A stretch of 64,000 nt of DNA from a virus. The translations under genes and the position numbers were made by a program. The stretch's first letter is position 1. Each line of letters starts with the position of its first letter. This document shows positions 6,009 to 29,279 of the stretch, piece by piece. The stretch lies in IMG/VR virus record IMGVR_UViG_3300048571_000088, positions 178,589 through 242,588 of that record; one strand, written 5' to 3'. The notes beneath the pieces were generated by a model. It did not search any database. It saw only the letters and a list, made by a program, of their open reading frames with translations, and had not been told where the DNA came from.

Positions 6009-7525
6009 TATATAGAGATATATTTTTAAAAGGGTTATACGAAGAGAATCAGAATATCTATAGTAAATACTATTTAGAGAATTTATTAAATAATCAGTAT
6101 AATAAGATAGAAAAGAGTAGAGCAGATAATAGAGAAAATATAGAGAAATTAACTAATATATTAACTAATATAGATTATGATTTGTATAAACTTAACAATA
6201 AACTAAAAGATGCTTTAGATGTATTAAAAAAGAGTATAGTAGGAGAGAGGAATTTTATAGGTTATATATACAGTACAAATATACCTTTAAATAAAAGTTT
6301 TATAAGTGATGTTACTACAGCTACTGTACAGAGTAATATCGTATACGGAGCAACAATAGAAAAGGAAATTAAAGAACTCACATACTTAACATATAAAGAT
6401 ATAAGTAGTGAAACACTAAACATAGTTCCTAATACGCACAGTTTAGCTACTTTAAAAGATTTTAATATCTATAGTAAAGACAATAAACAGATACATGAAC
6501 TATCATTTAATGTAGAAAAGTTTCTTAAGACTTCATTTATACTTGAGTTCAAAGATCATCAACTAATTGAAATTCTTATTGATGATACATTAACAATAGA
6601 AAAAAGCTTAAGAAAAAGTATACTACTACCTATAAATAATAAGTCACTAATAGTCAGAATACATAGTATCAAATCGACTAATCAGACTGTACATATTAAA
6701 AAAATAGGAGTAAGTAATAAAGTATACGAGTCTACAACTGTATACGAAAGTTCACCTATACAGATAAACAAGGAACTGGAATACATCAATCTTGAGATAT
6801 GTGATAACACATCTAAGAATGTCGATATACAGTACGAAATAAAAATTAATAACGGAAATTATGAATTATTCGAGTCAAACAAAAATAATTTAAAAACATA
6901 TCAAAACGTAATTAAATTAAATAAAAGTTCAACACTAGAGACACTTGAAGTCGAGGGACTTAAAGAAAATGAAGACGCATATAAATTCTATATACCTGTA
7001 ACAGGAGAATCTAATTCATATACTGTAGATGTACGTTTAAAGAATAATCTAATAAAACGTAATAAAGAATTATTTATAGTTGCATTAGAAGATACAAACA
7101 TAGTTATAAATAATATAAAAGGGAATTCTATGAACAGAGTATTCATAGATAATAAAGAAATAACCACACAAACTGAAATAATCCCTAAAGGAATACGAAG
7201 TGTTGTAGTATTAGATGGAACAGGATCTAATGTAATTGAAATCACTGAAGATGCTTACACCTATTTAAATACAATCTTTAAAACAATCTATATTAGTAGT
7301 TTAAAGAAACAAGTATTTAAAGACTCCAAAGGAAGTTTTATAGTATTAACTAACACAGAGTTAAAAGAAAGTTTTAACTTACTAAGTAAAGATAAATTTT
7401 ATGCATACTTTAACAGTAATAAACACACATTAAGAGTACAAAATATTCAAGTAAAAGCTACTATGAAATCTTTAGATAAAAGTACTTGCCCATACATAAG
7501 CAAAATAATAGTAAAAGGAATGTAA
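6005..7525 (+). CDS. Putative structural protein with N-terminal coiled coil
   Basis: A 506-residue protein with no recognised family. Residues 1-80 are strongly helical (Asn/Lys/Glu/Leu pattern including NIEKLTNILTNI) and probably form a coiled-coil oligomerisation segment; the remainder is Ile/Asn/Ser/Thr-rich and probably beta-structured. Base composition is even more AT-rich than its neighbours. It overlaps the preceding gene by four bases and is followed after one base by the next. A virion role is inferred from the operon. Confidence 0.6.
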   Translation: MIYRDIFLKGLYEENQNIYSKYYLENLLNNQYNKIEKSRADNRENIEKLTNILTNIDYDLYKLNNKLKDALDVLKKSIVGERNFIGYIYSTNIPLNKSFISDVTTATVQSNIVYGATIEKEIKELTYLTYKDISSETLNIVPNTHSLATLKDFNIYSKDNKQIHELSFNVEKFLKTSFILEFKDHQLIEILIDDTLTIEKSLRKSILLPINNKSLIVRIHSIKSTNQTVHIKKIGVSNKVYESTTVYESSPIQINKELEYINLEICDNTSKNVDIQYEIKINNGNYELFESNKNNLKTYQNVIKLNKSSTLETLEVEGLKENEDAYKFYIPVTGESNSYTVDVRLKNNLIKRNKELFIVALEDTNIVINNIKGNSMNRVFIDNKEITTQTEIIPKGIRSVVVLDGTGSNVIEITEDAYTYLNTIFKTIYISSLKKQVFKDSKGSFIVLTNTELKESFNLLSKDKFYAYFNSNKHTLRVQNIQVKATMKSLDKSTCPYISKIIVKGM

Positions 7526-13260: not shown

Positions 13261-14274
13261 TCAAGATGTTGCTAGTAAAACCATAGACTCATTAAACCTT
13301 CCATGCGGAACAGTTTTAACTGTAGTAGACTTATTAAAAAGATCACCTAGTAAAGTAAGACTATTGGTTAATACTTTTTCATCTTTAATTTTGACACAAA
13401 CACTTTTATCAGTAAAATCTTTCAGTGTTGTGCCGCTAAATGTAAAGCCAGTAGAACTAAAGAAACATAGTAAAAGTTTCTTAGACTGATCATAAACATA
13501 TAGTTTTTTCTTACCCACCACTGAAGAAGGAGTGAGTACTTTGCTAGCAGAACCTAAAGGAATTAAAGAACACTTAACGGATTTAACCATTGCATTCTTA
13601 TTAATTGCTCTAGTACTTTTACTAGCTTTTGAAGTTGTTTTAGATTTATTATACTGATCTTTTAAAGAGGTAAGAGAAGTAACTAAAACCTTATAAGCTG
13701 GCCTATCTAAACATTTATTTTTAAAATCATCTTCGATGTACGTTAATTGACTATCAATGTACTCAATACAAGATTTAACTTTTAGTGTTTGAGTTTCAAC
13801 TTCATAAGTAAAGTTTAATGGCTTACCATACAGTTTATAATCAATATACAAATCTATATTTGTTAAGTGTTCTGAACATTCTTTTTTTACAAGTTTTAAA
13901 ACAACAGGTTTAAAAGAATCTATTTTAACTGGATGTCTTGTAGATAAATATTCAAGCCTATTTTCAAACGATTGTAAAACATCAGAAGGAAGAATCCAAC
14001 CTAACGCCAATAAACGAGAAATTACAAGGACTGGCTCATAACAAGTGATACTAGAGATTGAAATATTAAACTTTCTAGAAGAAAAAGACTCAAGATAAGT
14101 TTGAAGATACTGTTTCATATCTAATAATGAAATGTCTTCATTATTAGCGTAATAATTTAATAATGAAATTAACGCATATTTGCTAATTTCTTCTAACTCA
14201 GGAACAGGCTCTTTAAATTTTATACTTTTACGATTAATGGCAATCTCCCCAAGTCTGTCCAGTATTCCAAGCAA
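13261..14274 (-). CDS. Hypothetical protein downstream of DNA polymerase
   Basis: A 337-residue, Lys/Ser/Thr-rich protein that I cannot classify. The annotated ATG overlaps the polymerase 3' end by 41 bases; a later start is possible because GGGGAG occurs about 25 bases inside. No catalytic motif or membrane helix is visible. Translational coupling to the polymerase suggests a replication accessory role (inference). The 68 bases between its stop and the SSB start hold no gene; that short AT-rich gap may contain a promoter, but I see no convincing one. Confidence 0.5.
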   Translation of the reverse strand: MLGILDRLGEIAINRKSIKFKEPVPELEEISKYALISLLNYYANNEDISLLDMKQYLQTYLESFSSRKFNISISSITCYEPVLVISRLLALGWILPSDVLQSFENRLEYLSTRHPVKIDSFKPVVLKLVKKECSEHLTNIDLYIDYKLYGKPLNFTYEVETQTLKVKSCIEYIDSQLTYIEDDFKNKCLDRPAYKVLVTSLTSLKDQYNKSKTTSKASKSTRAINKNAMVKSVKCSLIPLGSASKVLTPSSVVGKKKLYVYDQSKKLLLCFFSSTGFTFSGTTLKDFTDKSVCVKIKDEKVLTNSLTLLGDLFNKSTTVKTVPHGRFNESMVLLATS

Positions 14275-17200
14275 TACCTAAGTCGACTCTAAATTTTAAA
14301 TCTTCTTTAGCCTTTTTAAGGCCGTTTTCAAACGCAGTAATAATAGGATTGTTATCAGTCACATAATAATAATTATCTTTATGACCGATATCAGAAGTAC
14401 TACCTGATTCTTTTTTATACTTTTCTGCTTGAAGTAAACAAGGATGTTTTAAAGTTTTTATTAGTTTTAAATAAACTTCTTTAGAGTTTTCGTCGATAGT
14501 AACTAGTGGGTTTCCACTGTCTTCTCCGTTAACAATAGCTTCATACTCTTTAAGAGTCTCGTAGTACTCCTGAACAGAAGTTTCAGTTAAATCTTCAATA
14601 AATTTATGAACAGGTACTAAAGAAGGATGTGCAGCAGTTTGAAGTTCATCATGATAAAAAATCATTAAGAATGCTTTACAATCCTCATAAGAATTAACTA
14701 ATGGATCTCCAAGCATTCCTTTCTCTTCGAGTTCCTGACACATATTAAGAAGAGCATACTTACAAATAATTGCACCAGCAGACTGGAATAATAAATTAAT
14801 TAAACTGTGCTGAAAGCGAGAACGAAGTTTTCTTCCATCAATACCAAGAATAAATTCTTTATTACCAACTCTCTTCCAATAAGTTTCTAATTTATCTTTT
14901 AATTCTTTCAAAGCAGGAACAGATTCCCAAAATAAATCATACAACTCTTCTGCACGTTCTTTAGAAACACCTAGCATAGCTTGAAGCTTTGCAATTCCTG
15001 CACCATATAAAACAGCATAGTTAAAACTTTTTGCTGGATCTCTCTCAATACCTAGTTTCCTAGCAGTAATGCTATTACCTGTTATAAAAACTTTACCATG
15101 TCTTCTACATACTATATAAGTATCAGGAACAGATACACAGTATACAAATCCATTATATGGTACTTCAGTAATAGTTGTGTGCTTTAATGAAGATCCTTTC
15201 AAATTAAAAGGATTAAAAGGAATTAAAATTTGAAATTTATTATTTTTAGTTTGTATCAATGCTTGTCGATTAGTTGTTAAACAACCGATTTGAATAGAAG
15301 TAATAAAAGCATAGTCACTCGATGTAACAAGCAGGCCAGAATTTTTTACCATAGCAGTAAAAACAGAATTAAAATAATCAGTTTTTACTTTTTCTAAGAT
15401 ATCGTAAGCAGAAGAAAACTGATTATTTTCAAGAGATCCGTAAGCTGGAATAACTCCACTAGTCGTCAACTCTGATGCTAATACATCAATCGCAGAACTA
15501 TCTTCTGATAGTACAGCATTCCTATGCTCAGGTGTCATTAGAATAGAAAGTCTATCCCCTTGAACAGACACCATATTACCATTGTACTGACATTTAATAA
15601 ACTCAGTAGGCTTGGTAATTGATAACGCTCTAGTATCTTTATTCCATTGGACTACACTTTCGTTTTGGTTTAGATCAGAAAATAACTTAAAACCTTCTTC
15701 TGTAAGAATTTCTGTATCGTCTGAAAGACAATTTCCACTTACAAATATGTTAAGATCTTCTTTTACCATTATAAAAGAACTTGGTACTTGTACGCAACCT
15801 ACTTCCTCTTCACTTACATAAGTCGTAAGCTTTAAGGAAGAAAGAAGAACTACTTCAGAAGGTGAAATTACAATACCAAAGCTATCTTGATCTTCTACCT
15901 TATACATGTCTTCTGCAAGTAAAGTAATATAAGAATTTTCTGTAGTTAGGTCTTTAAGTAAGACTCTGTGTTTGTTTGTCATAGTCATTTTAAATCCGCT
16001 AGAATTTGAAAAGACATGCATAACATCAGATATCAAATTATTTCTACGGATAATTTTTAAAGGCTTAACAAAAGTTACTTCACCATAAGACCACTGAGCA
16101 ACAAAATCATCTACTGAAATATCAGATATTTTCTTCCAACCGAAAGGAGTTAGTAATTCATTTTTGACAGGAAAAGCATGGAGATCATTTGGTTTTTCAG
16201 CAATAAGGGCTTCTGCTAATTCGGGTCCATCTGTATAATTAAATACGTAATGACCTTCAGTCCTAGCTTCAAGGGAAGCTAAATCTAGTCCTACCTGAAC
16301 GTACCCTGCACCACACCCGAAAAGATTTCTCATACGGGCACCCTCAAGAGATGTAATTCTCGGGATGTTACAAATACCCTTATGCTTGTAGCGGAATGTC
16401 GATGCGCCGATTGTAGAAGCAGGTGTACTTATACGACCGTCTGCACGAACCATAGATTTAAAACCTTTTAAAGGCTCTCCATCTTCGTCTGTTGCAGTAC
16501 CTGAAATACTATTTCTACGGTGTTTATAAGTTAGATAGTTAGTGACATCTAAAGCAAAATCTGCTTGTTTACCAAGAAGTTTAAGGCCAGAGCATAACTT
16601 TTTCTCTGTTCCTACACGAAGAAGAGGACTAACAGGAACAATACATTTATTTGTCTTACAAGCTTTTAAAAGTTTATCTTTTAATTCTGATTCTGTTGTT
16701 TCTAGTAAAGAAAGACGGTGATCCCTAAAAGGACCGTTTAAAGTAGAATCAACGTAACGATCAACTGCTGCTAAAATCTTATCAGGGGGTTGAGCCTGTT
16801 TTTTTGAATCCTTCTTTAAGTCTCGATATTTCCATTCTTCTGGCACCCAACCTAAAGAAAGCAGATACCCTTTTAAATAGTCCAAATCATCAATAGTAGT
16901 AGGAACAGAAGTAACTAATGGCTCTCGATGAGGAAGAGAAAATACTTTATTATTATAGGTCATCGTAAGATTTTCATTATCTAAAGTAGCACCTAAACGT
17001 TCAGCAAAATTAATAAGATGAGCACCAAAAGATAAATCTTTTTTAACTTGAGAAGCAGGTGGTGTTACAGCTTTCTGCTCACCTTTATTTAAAGGACGTA
17101 AAGGAAGGCGAGGATTAACTCTTTCTGCATACTCTTTTAGTTTAGTATCAAAATGAATAAGATTATCCTCTGCTAAATCAGAATCAAAATGAAATCCAAA

Positions 17201-17800
17201 TAAACTTTGTTTTAAAGTTAAATCAACTAATTTTAGTTCTTGTTGATAAGCTTTTGTATAATCCCAAGAACCTTTTTCTATCATCAGATCTTTATATACT
17301 TCTATATTGGAACGACAATCTTGCTCCATATAGATTTCAAGTTCTTCAGACCACTGACTAAAATCTTCATGTCTTGATTTAGATTCAGAATTATTTTTTG
17401 ATAAATTAGAAAGACTGTGTCCGCCTACTCTATCTGGATTTAACAATTGAGACCAAATCAAAGTATCGGTTACTACGACAGGACGACCATTTAATGTACT
17501 TTCTTGACCTACGTATCCAATCTTATAATCTAGAAGATCAAATAACTTTAAAACAGGTAAATCATATCCTACGATATTATGGCCTGCAATTTCTACAACA
17601 TTACTAAATACCTCAGTAATCTTTTCTTTAGTCATTTGTTCAAGACGTAAAGTTATTTTTTCACTAGGGTTATGAAGATTAAAAAAAGAAATACACCATA
17701 ATCTAGCTTCTTCTGTTAGCTTATAAGGCATTGACCTAAAATCTAACATATCCTCTAACAAATTATTTGCTTCTGAGTCAAATAAAATATGTTTAAACAT
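14234..17800 (-). CDS. polA: Family A DNA polymerase with two abutting inteins
   Basis: Replicative DNA polymerase (1188 residues before splicing, about 820 after). Residues 1-190 form a 3'-5' exonuclease domain (FDSEANN, HNIVGYDLP and the final YMEQDC segment supply the acidic ligands). The polymerase domain has motif A VGLDLASLEAR (503-513), motif B RDPAKSFNYAVLYGAG (920-935) and motif C FYHDEL. Motif B is preceded by an insertion: NDLH is followed by residues 542-690 and 691-909, both with intein blocks, before SITARKLGI resumes. Without them the junction DLH-SITARK matches family A polymerases. All CGG bases here are out of frame (for example ATC GGC), so no frameshift is needed. Confidence 0.9.
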   Translation of the reverse strand: MFKHILFDSEANNLLEDMLDFRSMPYKLTEEARLWCISFFNLHNPSEKITLRLEQMTKEKITEVFSNVVEIAGHNIVGYDLPVLKLFDLLDYKIGYVGQESTLNGRPVVVTDTLIWSQLLNPDRVGGHSLSNLSKNNSESKSRHEDFSQWSEELEIYMEQDCRSNIEVYKDLMIEKGSWDYTKAYQQELKLVDLTLKQSLFGFHFDSDLAEDNLIHFDTKLKEYAERVNPRLPLRPLNKGEQKAVTPPASQVKKDLSFGAHLINFAERLGATLDNENLTMTYNNKVFSLPHREPLVTSVPTTIDDLDYLKGYLLSLGWVPEEWKYRDLKKDSKKQAQPPDKILAAVDRYVDSTLNGPFRDHRLSLLETTESELKDKLLKACKTNKCIVPVSPLLRVGTEKKLCSGLKLLGKQADFALDVTNYLTYKHRRNSISGTATDEDGEPLKGFKSMVRADGRISTPASTIGASTFRYKHKGICNIPRITSLEGARMRNLFGCGAGYVQVGLDLASLEARTEGHYVFNYTDGPELAEALIAEKPNDLHAFPVKNELLTPFGWKKISDISVDDFVAQWSYGEVTFVKPLKIIRRNNLISDVMHVFSNSSGFKMTMTNKHRVLLKDLTTENSYITLLAEDMYKVEDQDSFGIVISPSEVVLLSSLKLTTYVSEEEVGCVQVPSSFIMVKEDLNIFVSGNCLSDDTEILTEEGFKLFSDLNQNESVVQWNKDTRALSITKPTEFIKCQYNGNMVSVQGDRLSILMTPEHRNAVLSEDSSAIDVLASELTTSGVIPAYGSLENNQFSSAYDILEKVKTDYFNSVFTAMVKNSGLLVTSSDYAFITSIQIGCLTTNRQALIQTKNNKFQILIPFNPFNLKGSSLKHTTITEVPYNGFVYCVSVPDTYIVCRRHGKVFITGNSITARKLGIERDPAKSFNYAVLYGAGIAKLQAMLGVSKERAEELYDLFWESVPALKELKDKLETYWKRVGNKEFILGIDGRKLRSRFQHSLINLLFQSAGAIICKYALLNMCQELEEKGMLGDPLVNSYEDCKAFLMIFYHDELQTAAHPSLVPVHKFIEDLTETSVQEYYETLKEYEAIVNGEDSGNPLVTIDENSKEVYLKLIKTLKHPCLLQAEKYKKESGSTSDIGHKDNYYYVTDNNPIITAFENGLKKAKEDLKFRVDLGIAWNTGQTWGDCH
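15074..15730 (-). mobile_element. Mini-intein 2 in DNA polymerase (Cys1 type)
   Basis: Residues 691-909 of the polymerase. Block A CLSDDTEILTEEGFKLFSDL, block B GDRLSILMTPEHRN, block F/G VPDTYIVCRRHGKVFITGN, followed by Ser910 of the C-extein (SITARK). At 219 residues it may hold a degenerate linker but no visible LAGLIDADG or HNH motif. It directly abuts intein 1 with no extein residue between them. Confidence 0.8.
15731..16177 (-). mobile_element. Mini-intein 1 in DNA polymerase (Ala1 type)
   Basis: Residues 542-690 of the polymerase. Block A reads AFPVKNELLTPFGWKKISDI, block B MTNKHRVLL, and the C-terminal blocks run from about SLKLTTYVSEEEVG to NIFVSGN. It begins with Ala rather than Cys or Ser and ends in Asn, and the next residue is the Cys that starts intein 2. 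About 149 residues leave no room for a homing endonuclease domain. Boundaries are inferred from block positions. Confidence 0.75.
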
Positions 17801-25369: not shown

Positions 25370-26464
25370 TTAAACTGAAAGAATCTCAGTCGGATCTACT
25401 TCACACTGTAAGTGTATTTTTGTATAATTATTGTTATCAATTTCTTGATTAGCGTTTTGAACCTTATCAATATCAAGCCAATTACTCATATAGACTAAAG
25501 GACAATTGGGTCGAGTACCTTCAGCAAAACCTAAAGTATCACTAGCAAACCAATAATTAAATTCAGCCCAATGATTATTTAACTCAGCATTAAGTCCTAG
25601 TATTTTTCTCCCTTTAAAGATTTTCTTATTAAAGGTATACTCAACTTGTAAAAACTCATGTAAGAGTTTTTTAATCTCTTTTTCTTTTTTATCCATTGTT
25701 ACGGCAGCTCTAGGATCATTCTTGATTAAAAATCTAAGAACATAGTCACCAACTGCTGCATGTATATCCCACTCATCAATTAAGATTTTTTGTACTAAAA
25801 GACAAATACCACGGAAATAACCATTCTCTGCAGAGATAAAAGTAGAAGAGAAACTAGAGCAAAATTGTAAACGTTCAACTAAATAAATAGTTAAATAACC
25901 CATAAAGACAATATCAAATAATTCTTGATCAGTGTCTTTATATTGTCCTAATTTATATTTACAACCTGCAATATCTAATTCATTTAAATATTTGTAAGCT
26001 AATACTGATCTCTCTTTAATGAATTCGTTAGATGCCATAGATTTAAAAATCTGATTAGGATCTGGAATACATTGTCGATTAATTTCAGAATATGTTCTGG
26101 AATGGACAAGTTCCATTTCTTGATTTTTTAGGCAAGCAGCCCAAAATTCACTATTAGTGATAAAAGGAGACAGAAGGCAAGCAAATGCTCTACTAGCGAC
26201 AGAATCAATCTCCCATTGATAACTAAGGTTATCAATCATAAGACCTACTAAGTCTTTAGGAGCTTTTAACATATCTTGTCTACTAGTCTGCAAACTTACT
26301 TCATCATGTGACCAATCGATTTTTCTTTGATTGTCATAGAAAGCTAAGAGTTCAGGATGAGGAACATTGATTGAGTCGTGAAGACCCAATCGTTGCCCTA
26401 AGAATAAACTTGATTTCCCTGTTTTCCAGTCTGTGTTTTCACGATTAAAAATTAAATTTGTCAT
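25370..26464 (-). CDS. nrdB: Ribonucleotide reductase small subunit NrdB
   Basis: Class I ribonucleotide reductase beta subunit (364 residues), which houses the metal centre and generates the radical used by NrdA. Visible ligand motifs: ENQEMELVHSRTYS-like segment (KNQEMELVHSRTYS, about residue 113, with Glu, His and the radical Tyr), VERLQFCSSFS (Glu, about 205) and DEWDIHA (Glu-x2-His, about 238). The ATG overlaps the NrdA stop by 4 bases, so the pair is translationally coupled. Length is normal for phage NrdB. Confidence 0.9.
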   Translation of the reverse strand: MTNLIFNRENTDWKTGKSSLFLGQRLGLHDSINVPHPELLAFYDNQRKIDWSHDEVSLQTSRQDMLKAPKDLVGLMIDNLSYQWEIDSVASRAFACLLSPFITNSEFWAACLKNQEMELVHSRTYSEINRQCIPDPNQIFKSMASNEFIKERSVLAYKYLNELDIAGCKYKLGQYKDTDQELFDIVFMGYLTIYLVERLQFCSSFSSTFISAENGYFRGICLLVQKILIDEWDIHAAVGDYVLRFLIKNDPRAAVTMDKKEKEIKKLLHEFLQVEYTFNKKIFKGRKILGLNAELNNHWAEFNYWFASDTLGFAEGTRPNCPLVYMSNWLDIDKVQNANQEIDNNNYTKIHLQCEVDPTEILSV

Positions 26465-29279
26465 ACTTGACAGCCTCCTGAACCACAGGAAGAGTTTGGA
26501 GTCTCTGGTTCCTTGTTTACTCTAGTCTTTGAATTTGAATAATAAGTACCTTTGGTACCCATTTTTAGCTTGTATAGGATATTAGTAAATATTTCACGGT
26601 CTGTTAAAGCAGGGGAATCAGGATTTGAAAAATCACGATAATAATCTGCACTAATTCCACCGTCTATAAATGACTGAAGAATAGCATAGTGATCTATTAA
26701 ATCTTTTGTAGGGATGTCCCAAGCAATTTCATAATTATACTTGAGAGTATCATACTCAGGTACAATTGTAATATTTTTATCAGAGCCGTCACCTTTAATG
26801 ACAACTAACTGACGAGGCGGATATACAGAATTTACGTTATCTTGAACTTGGGCGGAAGATTCAGCAGGCATAATAGAACCATGACTACTAAATGCAAGAC
26901 CATGCGTCTTGATTTCTCTATCTAGTTCATCCCAATCATAATGAAATTTTAAATTAATTACATCTTTAATATTAGGATTGATTGTATGGATTGGCAACCA
27001 ACCATCAGAATAAGTTGTACGCTCATACCAATCAGGAACGCCATATTCTTTAGCTAGCCTAACAGAAGCTTTAAGAAGCATGTAACCATGTCTTTCAGCA
27101 ATAAACGCAGTATGTTCTTTGCCAGACTTAGAAGAATAAAATTTATTATTACGAGCTAACTCGTATGCTAAACCTATTAATCCTACTCCAGCGTTTCGTC
27201 GAGCTTTAGCAGTATACTCAAGATTTGGAAATGGATACTCACTGTTATTAATAACCCATAGAATTGTATACAAGGCATAATAACATGTCTCTTCGTATTC
27301 TTCGTCTGTATAGTCGCCAAATAAGTTTACAGCGGCAATGTTACACAAAGAAATTTCATTTTTACGCACTAAATCTATAACGGTATATTCTTTACTATTA
27401 TAGATAAATTTATCATTTTGTTTTAATTCTTTAGGTAATTTAAAATCGTCTAACTTAACATCAAAGATTTTTTTATCGTAGTCTTTAATGACAATTTGAT
27501 TTTCTTCTACGGTATTAACATAGATATATTCACTAGAATATGTTTCATATAATTCCCTAGCAGAATGAAAAGTTGCTGTAGGCTGTACTATTTCATTACA
27601 TTGTCCAGTTAAAATCCCATTAAAGACTGCCATGTGTCTTAAAGGTTCAGTAAGACAATATGTATCATTAGAACTTATTTTTTGTACACTAATTACAATA
27701 TCTTTTTGAAGTTCATTGTTCGGACTGTACCACTCTAACAAATGAGTATTTTCTGTTAAATCTGAAGTACGTACTTCAGAACCATCTTGTAAATACCACT
27801 TGTGTTCTGGAGTGCACTTAAGTGTCTTAATATTACCTCCATATTTATCTGCAGTTTTTACAAATAATAAAGGAACATTTATCCCAGTCTTTTTTACAAC
27901 AACCTTACTAAAAATCTCACCATTCCATACATTTACTTCTTGATCGACTAAGTCACTTATATGTTTTTGACCATTATCAGTCAAGATCAAAGTCTCAGGT
28001 GCAACACAGAGGTTTGAAGTTTCAATAGGTTCTTTATAAGAAGTATGCTGATTCGCACGTTCAATATTTAAATCATAAAGACGGCCAGTTTCAAATTGTT
28101 CACCACCATAGAGCTTTGCAATCTCTCTAGCTAGAAGACTACCCTTAATAAAAGAATGATTCTTACTATATTTTTCATACAGGCTGACAAATTCCTTAGA
28201 ATCTTTTGAATAAAAAGCTTTGTAAAGATCTGGAACATCTTTAATACTAAAAAGATTAACTGTTCCGTTAATTCTGATCAACTCACCAAAATAAGTATTA
28301 ATCATAATGGCATAATCAATCTCATCAACTTTCTTATCAGTTAAGGTTAATGGATTTCTTGCTTTAATAATATCTGTAATTTCAGGATCAAAGAAAGGTG
28401 TGTAACATGTTACTGCCCCACCTCGGTTTCCGCTGTTTATTACTTTTTGAAAGACTCTGGATAGCTTTTAAATAAGGGAGCTTACCAAGATGAGTAATTC
28501 TATTATTACGGACTCCGTCACCCAGGGAACGAATTTGCATGTTAGTACCTAATCCAGCACTAGCCATATTCATTATATCAGCAATGTGATTTCCCGCTGC
28601 AATACTTTGACCAGTATCTTCTGACGTAAAAAGACAGCAAGAAGTAGCCATTGATTTTTTAGTACCAATATACTCCCAATTTGGAGAGGGTAAAGAAAGT
28701 CGTTTAGCTAATAATTGCTTATTGATATAACGTTCAATATGATACAAACGATTAGGTTTTTCTTCAAATATTGTCATAGCAATTCGGGCAAAGAGAAACT
28801 GAGGGGTCTCGTAAACTTTACCTGAAACTGAATCTTTAAGAAGATATTTAGCTTCAAATTGTTTAATACGCGTATAAGTAAAGGTAAAGTCTTGATCATG
28901 TTGTAAAAAAGAATTAATCTTGTCTAGTTCTTCAGAACTGTAATTCCAGTCACGATAATAATTCAAATCTTGTAATTTTTTAATATGATCTTTTAGGTGG
29001 AGAGGTGTATCAGAATTAAAAACACGCTTATACAAGTCAGCCATGTAAAGCTTACCAGCTACTTGAAGATATTGTGACGTTTCTTGATCAAGGCACGCCA
29101 TAATCAAAGCTTTCATCAACTCATCAACTGTACATTCATCTGATAATTTTTTAATTCCGTTCTAAAACAATTACAGACCAATCACAATTATGACCTGCTG
29201 CCCAATCGGCTAACTTATTTAAACGTTCTGGTTGAAACTTAACTTTTCGGCCATTGCGTTTAATTAGATAATTGATCAT
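26461..29279 (-). CDS. nrdA: Ribonucleotide reductase large subunit NrdA with intein, two CGG skip sites
   Basis: Class I ribonucleotide reductase alpha subunit, 938 residues including a 136-residue intein. The ATP-cone starts MINYLIKRNGRKVKFQPERL. At 29159 the zero frame ends (GAA CGG AAT TAA); omitting the C gives LE-G-IKKLSDECTVDELMK (Gly41). At 28432 it fails again; omitting the C gives NKQ-G-NRGGAVTCYTPFFDPE (Gly283), matching the conserved QG.RGGA region. The catalytic Cys is in SNL-CNEI, interrupted by the intein. The C-terminus ends CGSGGCQV, the shuttle cysteines. All active-site elements are preserved. Confidence 0.88.
27601..28008 (-). mobile_element. Mini-intein in NrdA at the catalytic cysteine
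   Basis: About 136 residues between extein SNL and CNEIVQPT. Block A CVAPETLILTDNGQKHISDL, block B LKCTPEHKWYL, C-terminal blocks NDTYCLTEPLRHMAVFNGILTGQ. It starts with Cys and ends with Gln instead of Asn, a known variant at some RIR1 inteins. No endonuclease domain. The +1 residue is the reductase active-site Cys, so the enzyme is inactive until splicing. Confidence 0.8.

Follow-up and report, generated by a model that had tools for sequence, protein, structure and literature searches.

Two inteins of separate ancestry stand end to end in a viral family A DNA polymerase gene

The family A DNA polymerase (PolA) gene of the virus studied here is interrupted at a single site by two complete inteins of separate ancestry, which abut with exact boundaries and whose joint removal restores the site. 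Taken singly, each intein belongs to a known kind; the end-to-end arrangement is one that we have not found described. We consider it probable that two intein lineages stand in tandem at this PolA site, that both inteins are excised, and that intein 1 leaves first, in a reaction started by its own Cys669, followed by intein 2. The window, that is, the whole stretch of 64,000 nucleotides that was analysed, is the final 64 kb of a virus record of 242,588 bp, and the features concerned are as follows.

14234..17800, minus strand: precursor gene P0001 of the family A DNA polymerase, 1188 aa (single ORF; PF00476 DNA_pol_A, 1.1e-14)
16178..17800, minus strand: N-extein, residues 1-541, ending ...EKPNDLH (alignment with intein-free homologues)
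15731..16177, minus strand: intein 1, residues 542-690, a 149-aa mini-intein without endonuclease domain (profile, alignment, AF2 model)
16175..16177, minus strand: Ala542, residue 1 of intein 1 (Cys in all other aligned family members)
15794..15796, minus strand: Cys669, block F position 4 (F:4) of intein 1, the proposed first nucleophile in a class 3 step (invariant in the aligned family)
15728..15733, minus strand: Asn690-Cys691 shared junction, codons AAT TGT, the scissile bond both at the C-terminus of intein 1 and at the N-terminus of intein 2
15074..15730, minus strand: intein 2, residues 691-909, 219 aa (PF14890, 1.8e-5; TIGR01445 beginning exactly at 691; full-length orthologues)
14234..15073, minus strand: C-extein and stop, residues 910-1188, starting SITARKLG (alignment with intein-free homologues)

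Two complete inteins at one polymerase site

The exteins of P0001 form a family A DNA polymerase, both by their match to PF00476 and by the homology of the spliced sequence to PolA throughout; identity reaches at most 43% with phage homologues and 62% with the polymerase of contig L017. His541 is the last residue before intein 1, and Ser910 is the first residue of the C-extein and thus the +1 residue of intein 2. At the junction, PolA homologues that lack an intein have the sequence KPND[IL]H^[ST]..A.K[LM]G or a near variant of it (a caret marks a junction or break here and below), for example EKPNDIH-TLTGKRLG and KKPNDIH-SINAEKLG, and there is no insert at the site in an Edwardsiella phage, Acinetobacter phage Phab24, Cellulophaga phage phi17:2, Aeromonas phage PAc and many contigs. 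With both inserts removed, the window PolA aligns to these intein-free homologues without a gap and the family sequence is restored. No extein separates the two inteins. GC content and third-position GC are similar across all four segments, that is, the two exteins and the two inteins.

A profile HMM made from 17 related inteins of phages and bacteria, with the two window inteins excluded, recognised both inserts. Intein 1 scored 84.5 bits (E 1e-24) and intein 2 scored 160.4 bits (E 8e-48), against best scores of 7.5 and 8.8 bits, respectively, among 2000 shuffles of each. The two halves of the profile matched in order and to the last residue in each case, at residues 4-97 and 118-149 of intein 1 and at residues 1-103 and 127-219 of intein 2, in keeping with the blocks A, B, F and G that a preliminary description had assigned to both. 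Each intein has these four blocks in order, a terminal Asn and a +1 residue of the required kind (Cys, Ser or Thr), namely Asn690 followed by Cys691 and Asn909 followed by Ser910. The boundaries proposed in that description, residues 542-690 and 691-909, proved exact in both coordinates and residue numbers, and Cys691 indeed serves a double role, as +1 of intein 1 and as the first residue of intein 2.

The catalytic positions of intein 1 are Ala542 (A:1), Thr608 (B:7), His611 (B:10), Cys669 (F:4) and Ser688-Gly689-Asn690, and those of intein 2 are Cys691 (A:1), Thr756, His759, Cys888 (F:4) and Thr907-Gly908-Asn909. In intein 1 and intein 2 alike the penultimate residue is Gly and not the usual His. 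Both also have a cysteine at F:4, a feature that the preliminary description did not mention and that bears on the mechanism; this cysteine is invariant among all aligned family members. The middle part of intein 2 appears to be the remnant of an endonuclease; in the relatives of intein 2, this part seems to us to look like one half of an endonuclease domain.

Three other accounts of the insert were considered and rejected. A single composite intein of 368 aa does not fit, as all four blocks are present in each of the two parts and the relatives bear one type alone. A recent tandem duplication was rejected on the tree and the identities given below. An assembly chimera formed through shared DNA was rejected on the finding that the longest stretch common to the two inteins is no more than 13 bases.

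Relatives, ancestry and the search for further tandems

The closest polymerase found, that of L017, has one intein at exactly the same site, which matches intein 2 along the whole length at 47% identity, and the PolA of Acinetobacter phage vB_AbaM_ME3 likewise has one intein there, 31% identical to intein 2. Only the intein 2 type occupies the site in these two polymerases. They resemble the window in the site itself (DIH^S), in carrying a full-length homologue of intein 2 and in having both Cys1 and Cys F:4, and differ from it in that the intein is single, with nothing at its N-terminal junction. The first cysteine of intein 2 (Cys691) is conserved in L017, ME3 and a third locus, L025. In the last of these (6687-7355) an intein of the intein 2 type ends in Gln and is placed upstream of the usual site by two codons (KPND^C...ASQ^CHTINA); its insertion site has apparently shifted.

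In contigs L032 and L156 the same site is occupied by an intein of another type, about 315 aa long and with an endonuclease-type middle. The C-terminal 24 residues of the L156 intein are 71% identical to those of intein 1, its blocks F and G are nearly those of intein 1 (VGCVTVPSSFVVVKRSDKIFVSGN^C) and its +1 residue is Cys; the +1 residue of the L032 intein is Thr. The L156 and L032 inteins thus share with intein 1 the insertion site and nearly the same blocks F and G, and differ from it in having Cys1, in their endonuclease-type middle and in being single.

In a tree of a smaller set of sequences, intein 2 groups with L017, ME3 and L025 (support 92/93), and in a fuller tree that includes L156 the same four appear as two pairs. 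Intein 1 falls with L156 and L032 in the fuller tree, weakly (57/79). A clade uniting intein 1 and intein 2 was rejected in the fuller set (p 0.02) and gave p 0.13 in the smaller set, before L156 was added. The two inteins are not each other's closest relatives, as tandem duplicates would be, since the nearest relative of intein 2 is that of L017 (47%). A relationship of intein 1 to the endonuclease-bearing type of L156 and L032 is probable, and two intein lineages, each of which occupies this PolA site elsewhere, probably stand in tandem here.

On the simplest history, intein 2 would have been the resident, to which an intein of the other lineage known from this site was then added. We propose that a resident of the ME3/L017 type would have received an intein of the L156/L032 lineage exactly at its N-terminal junction, an invasion that would be workable if the newcomer could use the first cysteine of intein 2 as its own +1 residue, and that loss of the endonucleases and of Cys1 of intein 1 would have followed. 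If this is correct, a site already occupied by an intein may be open to reinvasion whenever the first cysteine of the resident can serve as +1 nucleophile.

The author of the earlier description was aware of no published example, and our searches for a second tandem found none in the open-access literature or by sequence patterns. Two inteins at the site were seen in none of about 77 PolA loci retrieved by homology, not all of which span it. The pattern GN^C...[D/G/E]T..[I/V]LT..G matched one viral contig, where a single intein follows an extein Gly-Asn, and gave no abutting pair; the HN^C variant of this pattern matched no viral contig, and its two genome matches are not tandem. A regular-expression scan of all retrieved loci returned only the window's own sequence, besides one of the two HN^C genome matches. 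A tblastn search with the junction peptide gave ordinary single inteins only, among the matches examined, and a single-protein search for the closest relatives gave none. Nothing relevant on tandem or nested inteins was found in the open-access literature. A comparison can be made with the neighbouring MCM-a and MCM-d inteins of haloarchaea (PMC10643990), which also lie close together in one replication gene; these, however, occupy separate sites, have extein between them and share no junction residues.

Splicing class of intein 1 and order of splicing

With Cys691 at position 1, intein 2 fits class 1, although either Cys691 or Cys888 may start its reaction. Ala542 at position 1 excludes intein 1 from that class. 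The preliminary description held that an N-terminal Ala forces a direct attack by Cys691, which is class 2 chemistry. This is not supported. According to a review (PMC4031507), every class 2 intein described there is an orthologue of Mja KlbA, in which Ser occupies G:6 and Asp occupies F:4; intein 1 has Gly689 and Cys669 at these positions. Intein 1 has two marks of class 3, the lack of a nucleophile at position 1 (Ala542) and a cysteine at F:4 (Cys669), by which class 3 inteins begin to splice, but not the Trp at B:12 or the Thr at G:5, which are replaced by Val613 and Ser688. Because these two residues are absent, intein 1 would best be called class 3-like only and not a standard member of the class. 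Deviations from the Trp/Thr motif are known, occurring in 4.6-6.1% of class 3 inteins, and the AceL NrdHF intein has Met at B:12 (PMC7891396).

AceL NrdHF is a proven class 3 intein that has Ala1 and Ser+1 and lacks both the motif Trp and His at G:6; it splices within minutes, and replacement of its G:5 Thr by Ala slowed the reaction only tenfold (PMC7891396). Among PDB entries, AceL NrdHF gave the top match to the intein family profile, and in the fold search with the AF2 model of intein 1 it again came first (E 9.7e-7), followed by Hedgehog and MchDnaB-1. Lower ranks held other class 3 and class 1 inteins, some of the class 3 inteins being outranked by Hedgehog domains, and the class 2 intein KlbA came at rank 35. 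The model has a mean pLDDT of 75, with both ends well predicted and an uncertain middle, and it superposes only loosely on AceL NrdHF (rmsd 7 Å) because of that uncertain middle. AceL NrdHF (PDB 6zgq; PMC7891396) resembles intein 1 in its Ala1, its SxxH/TxxH motif, its Cys F:4, its lack of the motif Trp and of His at G:6, and its phage-like source, whereas it is naturally split, resides in an RNR gene, has Thr at G:5 and is followed by Ser+1 in a normal extein with no adjoining intein. For intein 1, a reaction initiated by Cys669 is most likely, class 2 chemistry is unlikely and loss of function is possible. Many phage inteins across the family have Cys1 and Cys F:4 together without the class 3 Trp. 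Intein 1 would be a further natural intein with Ala1, Cys F:4 and no Trp alongside AceL NrdHF, and it bears on the origin of class 3 chemistry from phage inteins with Cys1.

Splicing of both inteins, the step at Cys669 and the order of events are what we infer from these comparisons, and we propose the following model. First, Cys669 in block F of intein 1 would attack the bond between His541 and Ala542. The N-extein would then be handed from block F of intein 1 to Cys691, and cyclisation of Asn690 would join His541 to Cys691, creating the His-Cys junction that L017 and ME3 show. Finally, intein 2 would splice in the usual way, by means of Cys691 (or Cys888), Ser910 and Asn909. With both inteins excised, the product would read NDLH-SITARK.

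Several observations argue for this model. A profile built without either intein recognises both, intein-free and single-intein homologues have exactly this insertion site, the trees place intein 2 with L017, ME3 and L025 and, weakly, intein 1 with L156 and L032, Cys F:4 is invariant in the family, the AF2 model of intein 1 is best matched by AceL NrdHF, and AceL NrdHF works with Ala1 and without the motif Trp. Against it stand the missing class 3 Trp (Val613) and the Ser in place of Thr at G:5 of intein 1, the presence of Cys1 in all its aligned relatives, so that its loss could equally reflect decay, the failure to find a close relative with Ala1, and the occurrence of the tandem in a single metagenomic contig only. 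An AF2 model of the whole tandem was poor (mean pLDDT 54).

Judged by sequence, the two active sites have one scissile bond and one cysteine in common. The thioester that intein 1 would form at Cys691 is the same as that of intein 2 itself, and we therefore regard a direct hand-over as chemically possible. We nevertheless doubt that the sharing of Cys691 is obligate, with the thioester being the first intermediate of intein 2 and the activated N-extein being passed on. If it were true, intein 2 would need no first step of its own, and the tandem would be a coupled splicing relay of two inteins and a natural case in which one peptide bond is the substrate of both.

That intein 1 goes first is likeliest, because intein 2 thereby gets its native His-Cys junction, and the sequence does not make this order obligatory. 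The earlier description had rightly placed Ser910 at +1 of intein 1 should intein 2 leave first, and had concluded that intein 1 must precede; class 3 inteins accept Ser+1, however, and Ser910 could serve, so this conclusion does not follow. As there is no extein between the inteins, the polymerase is the same whichever route is taken, even if both are removed jointly. A free order, in which both inteins are functional and intein 2 leaves first by way of the Asn690-Cys691 junction, with Ser910 then serving intein 1, or in which the N-terminal junction of intein 1 is linked straight to Ser910 and both leave as one piece of 368 residues, seems to us unlikely. Inteins reportedly promote alternative splicing in Haloquadratum walsbyi, to go by the title of a 2022 report by Yalala that is cited in PMC10643990, and we counted this in favour of a free order. 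The same can be said of the +1 residues, which are mostly Ser or Thr in class 3 inteins (PMC5222942), Ser in AceL NrdHF and Thr in L032 at this very site. On the other hand, intein 2 would then be preceded by Asn at -1, where ME3, L017 and the extein have His, and would have to splice beside a folded intein 1.

We give still less credence to intein 1 having been dead for splicing since the loss of Cys1, so that it would at most cleave and polymerase would be made poorly or never. Cys1 is present in every aligned relative, Trp B:12 and Thr G:5 are missing, and the endonuclease is gone from intein 1, leaving no selection for mobility. However, the reading frame is intact, every other catalytic position is retained, and AceL NrdHF, with Ala1 and without the Trp, still splices fast (PMC7891396). 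In addition, the phage polymerase would presumably be inactivated by a 149-aa insert left immediately ahead of motif B.

Least credible is a class 2 reaction in which Cys691 attacks the His541-Ala542 bond directly and intein 1 must precede intein 2: Ala1 and Cys+1 match the class 2 pattern superficially, but the residues at G:6 and F:4 are not those of the KlbA orthologues (PMC4031507), KlbA ranked below class 3 and class 1 inteins in the fold search, and in the class 3 intein Bvi IcmO the F:4 cysteine cannot be replaced by Cys+1 (PMC5222942). The tandem offers a ready system for measuring which of two splicing reactions that act at one common bond comes first.

Other inteins and polymerase irregularities

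Further inteins occur in the same genome. On the minus strand of the window (26461-28305), a ribonucleotide reductase large subunit contains a mini-intein (NL^CVAPETLIL...LTGQ^CNEIVQPT) that has Cys1 and the full Trp-Cys-Thr motif and ends in Gln. A metallophosphoesterase (L002 679-2355; G000:C1 near 0.8-2.4 kb) carries a 310-aa intein of the family with Cys1 and Cys F:4. An unnamed protein (L096 1162-2430; G000:C1 near 123 kb) has an intein of ordinary class 1 appearance that ends VHN^C; added to the others, it brings the genome to at least five inteins.

The PolA gene of the window is unbroken at motif C. At that point (YH^DE) the PolA frame is interrupted in ME3, L017 and L156, with the rest in a separate downstream frame; the broken sites (L003 5784-6078, L017/L061 and L156) lie after the YH of motif C. 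The break in ME3, L017 and L156 is perhaps an intron, and an Rfam search for one in ME3 and L061 gave no match. Lastly, the annotated PolA intein of Escherichia phage PaulScherrer (L005 3714-4448) is apparently off by one codon; with its start at the preceding Cys and its end at Asn, it would have Cys1 and the full WCT motif.
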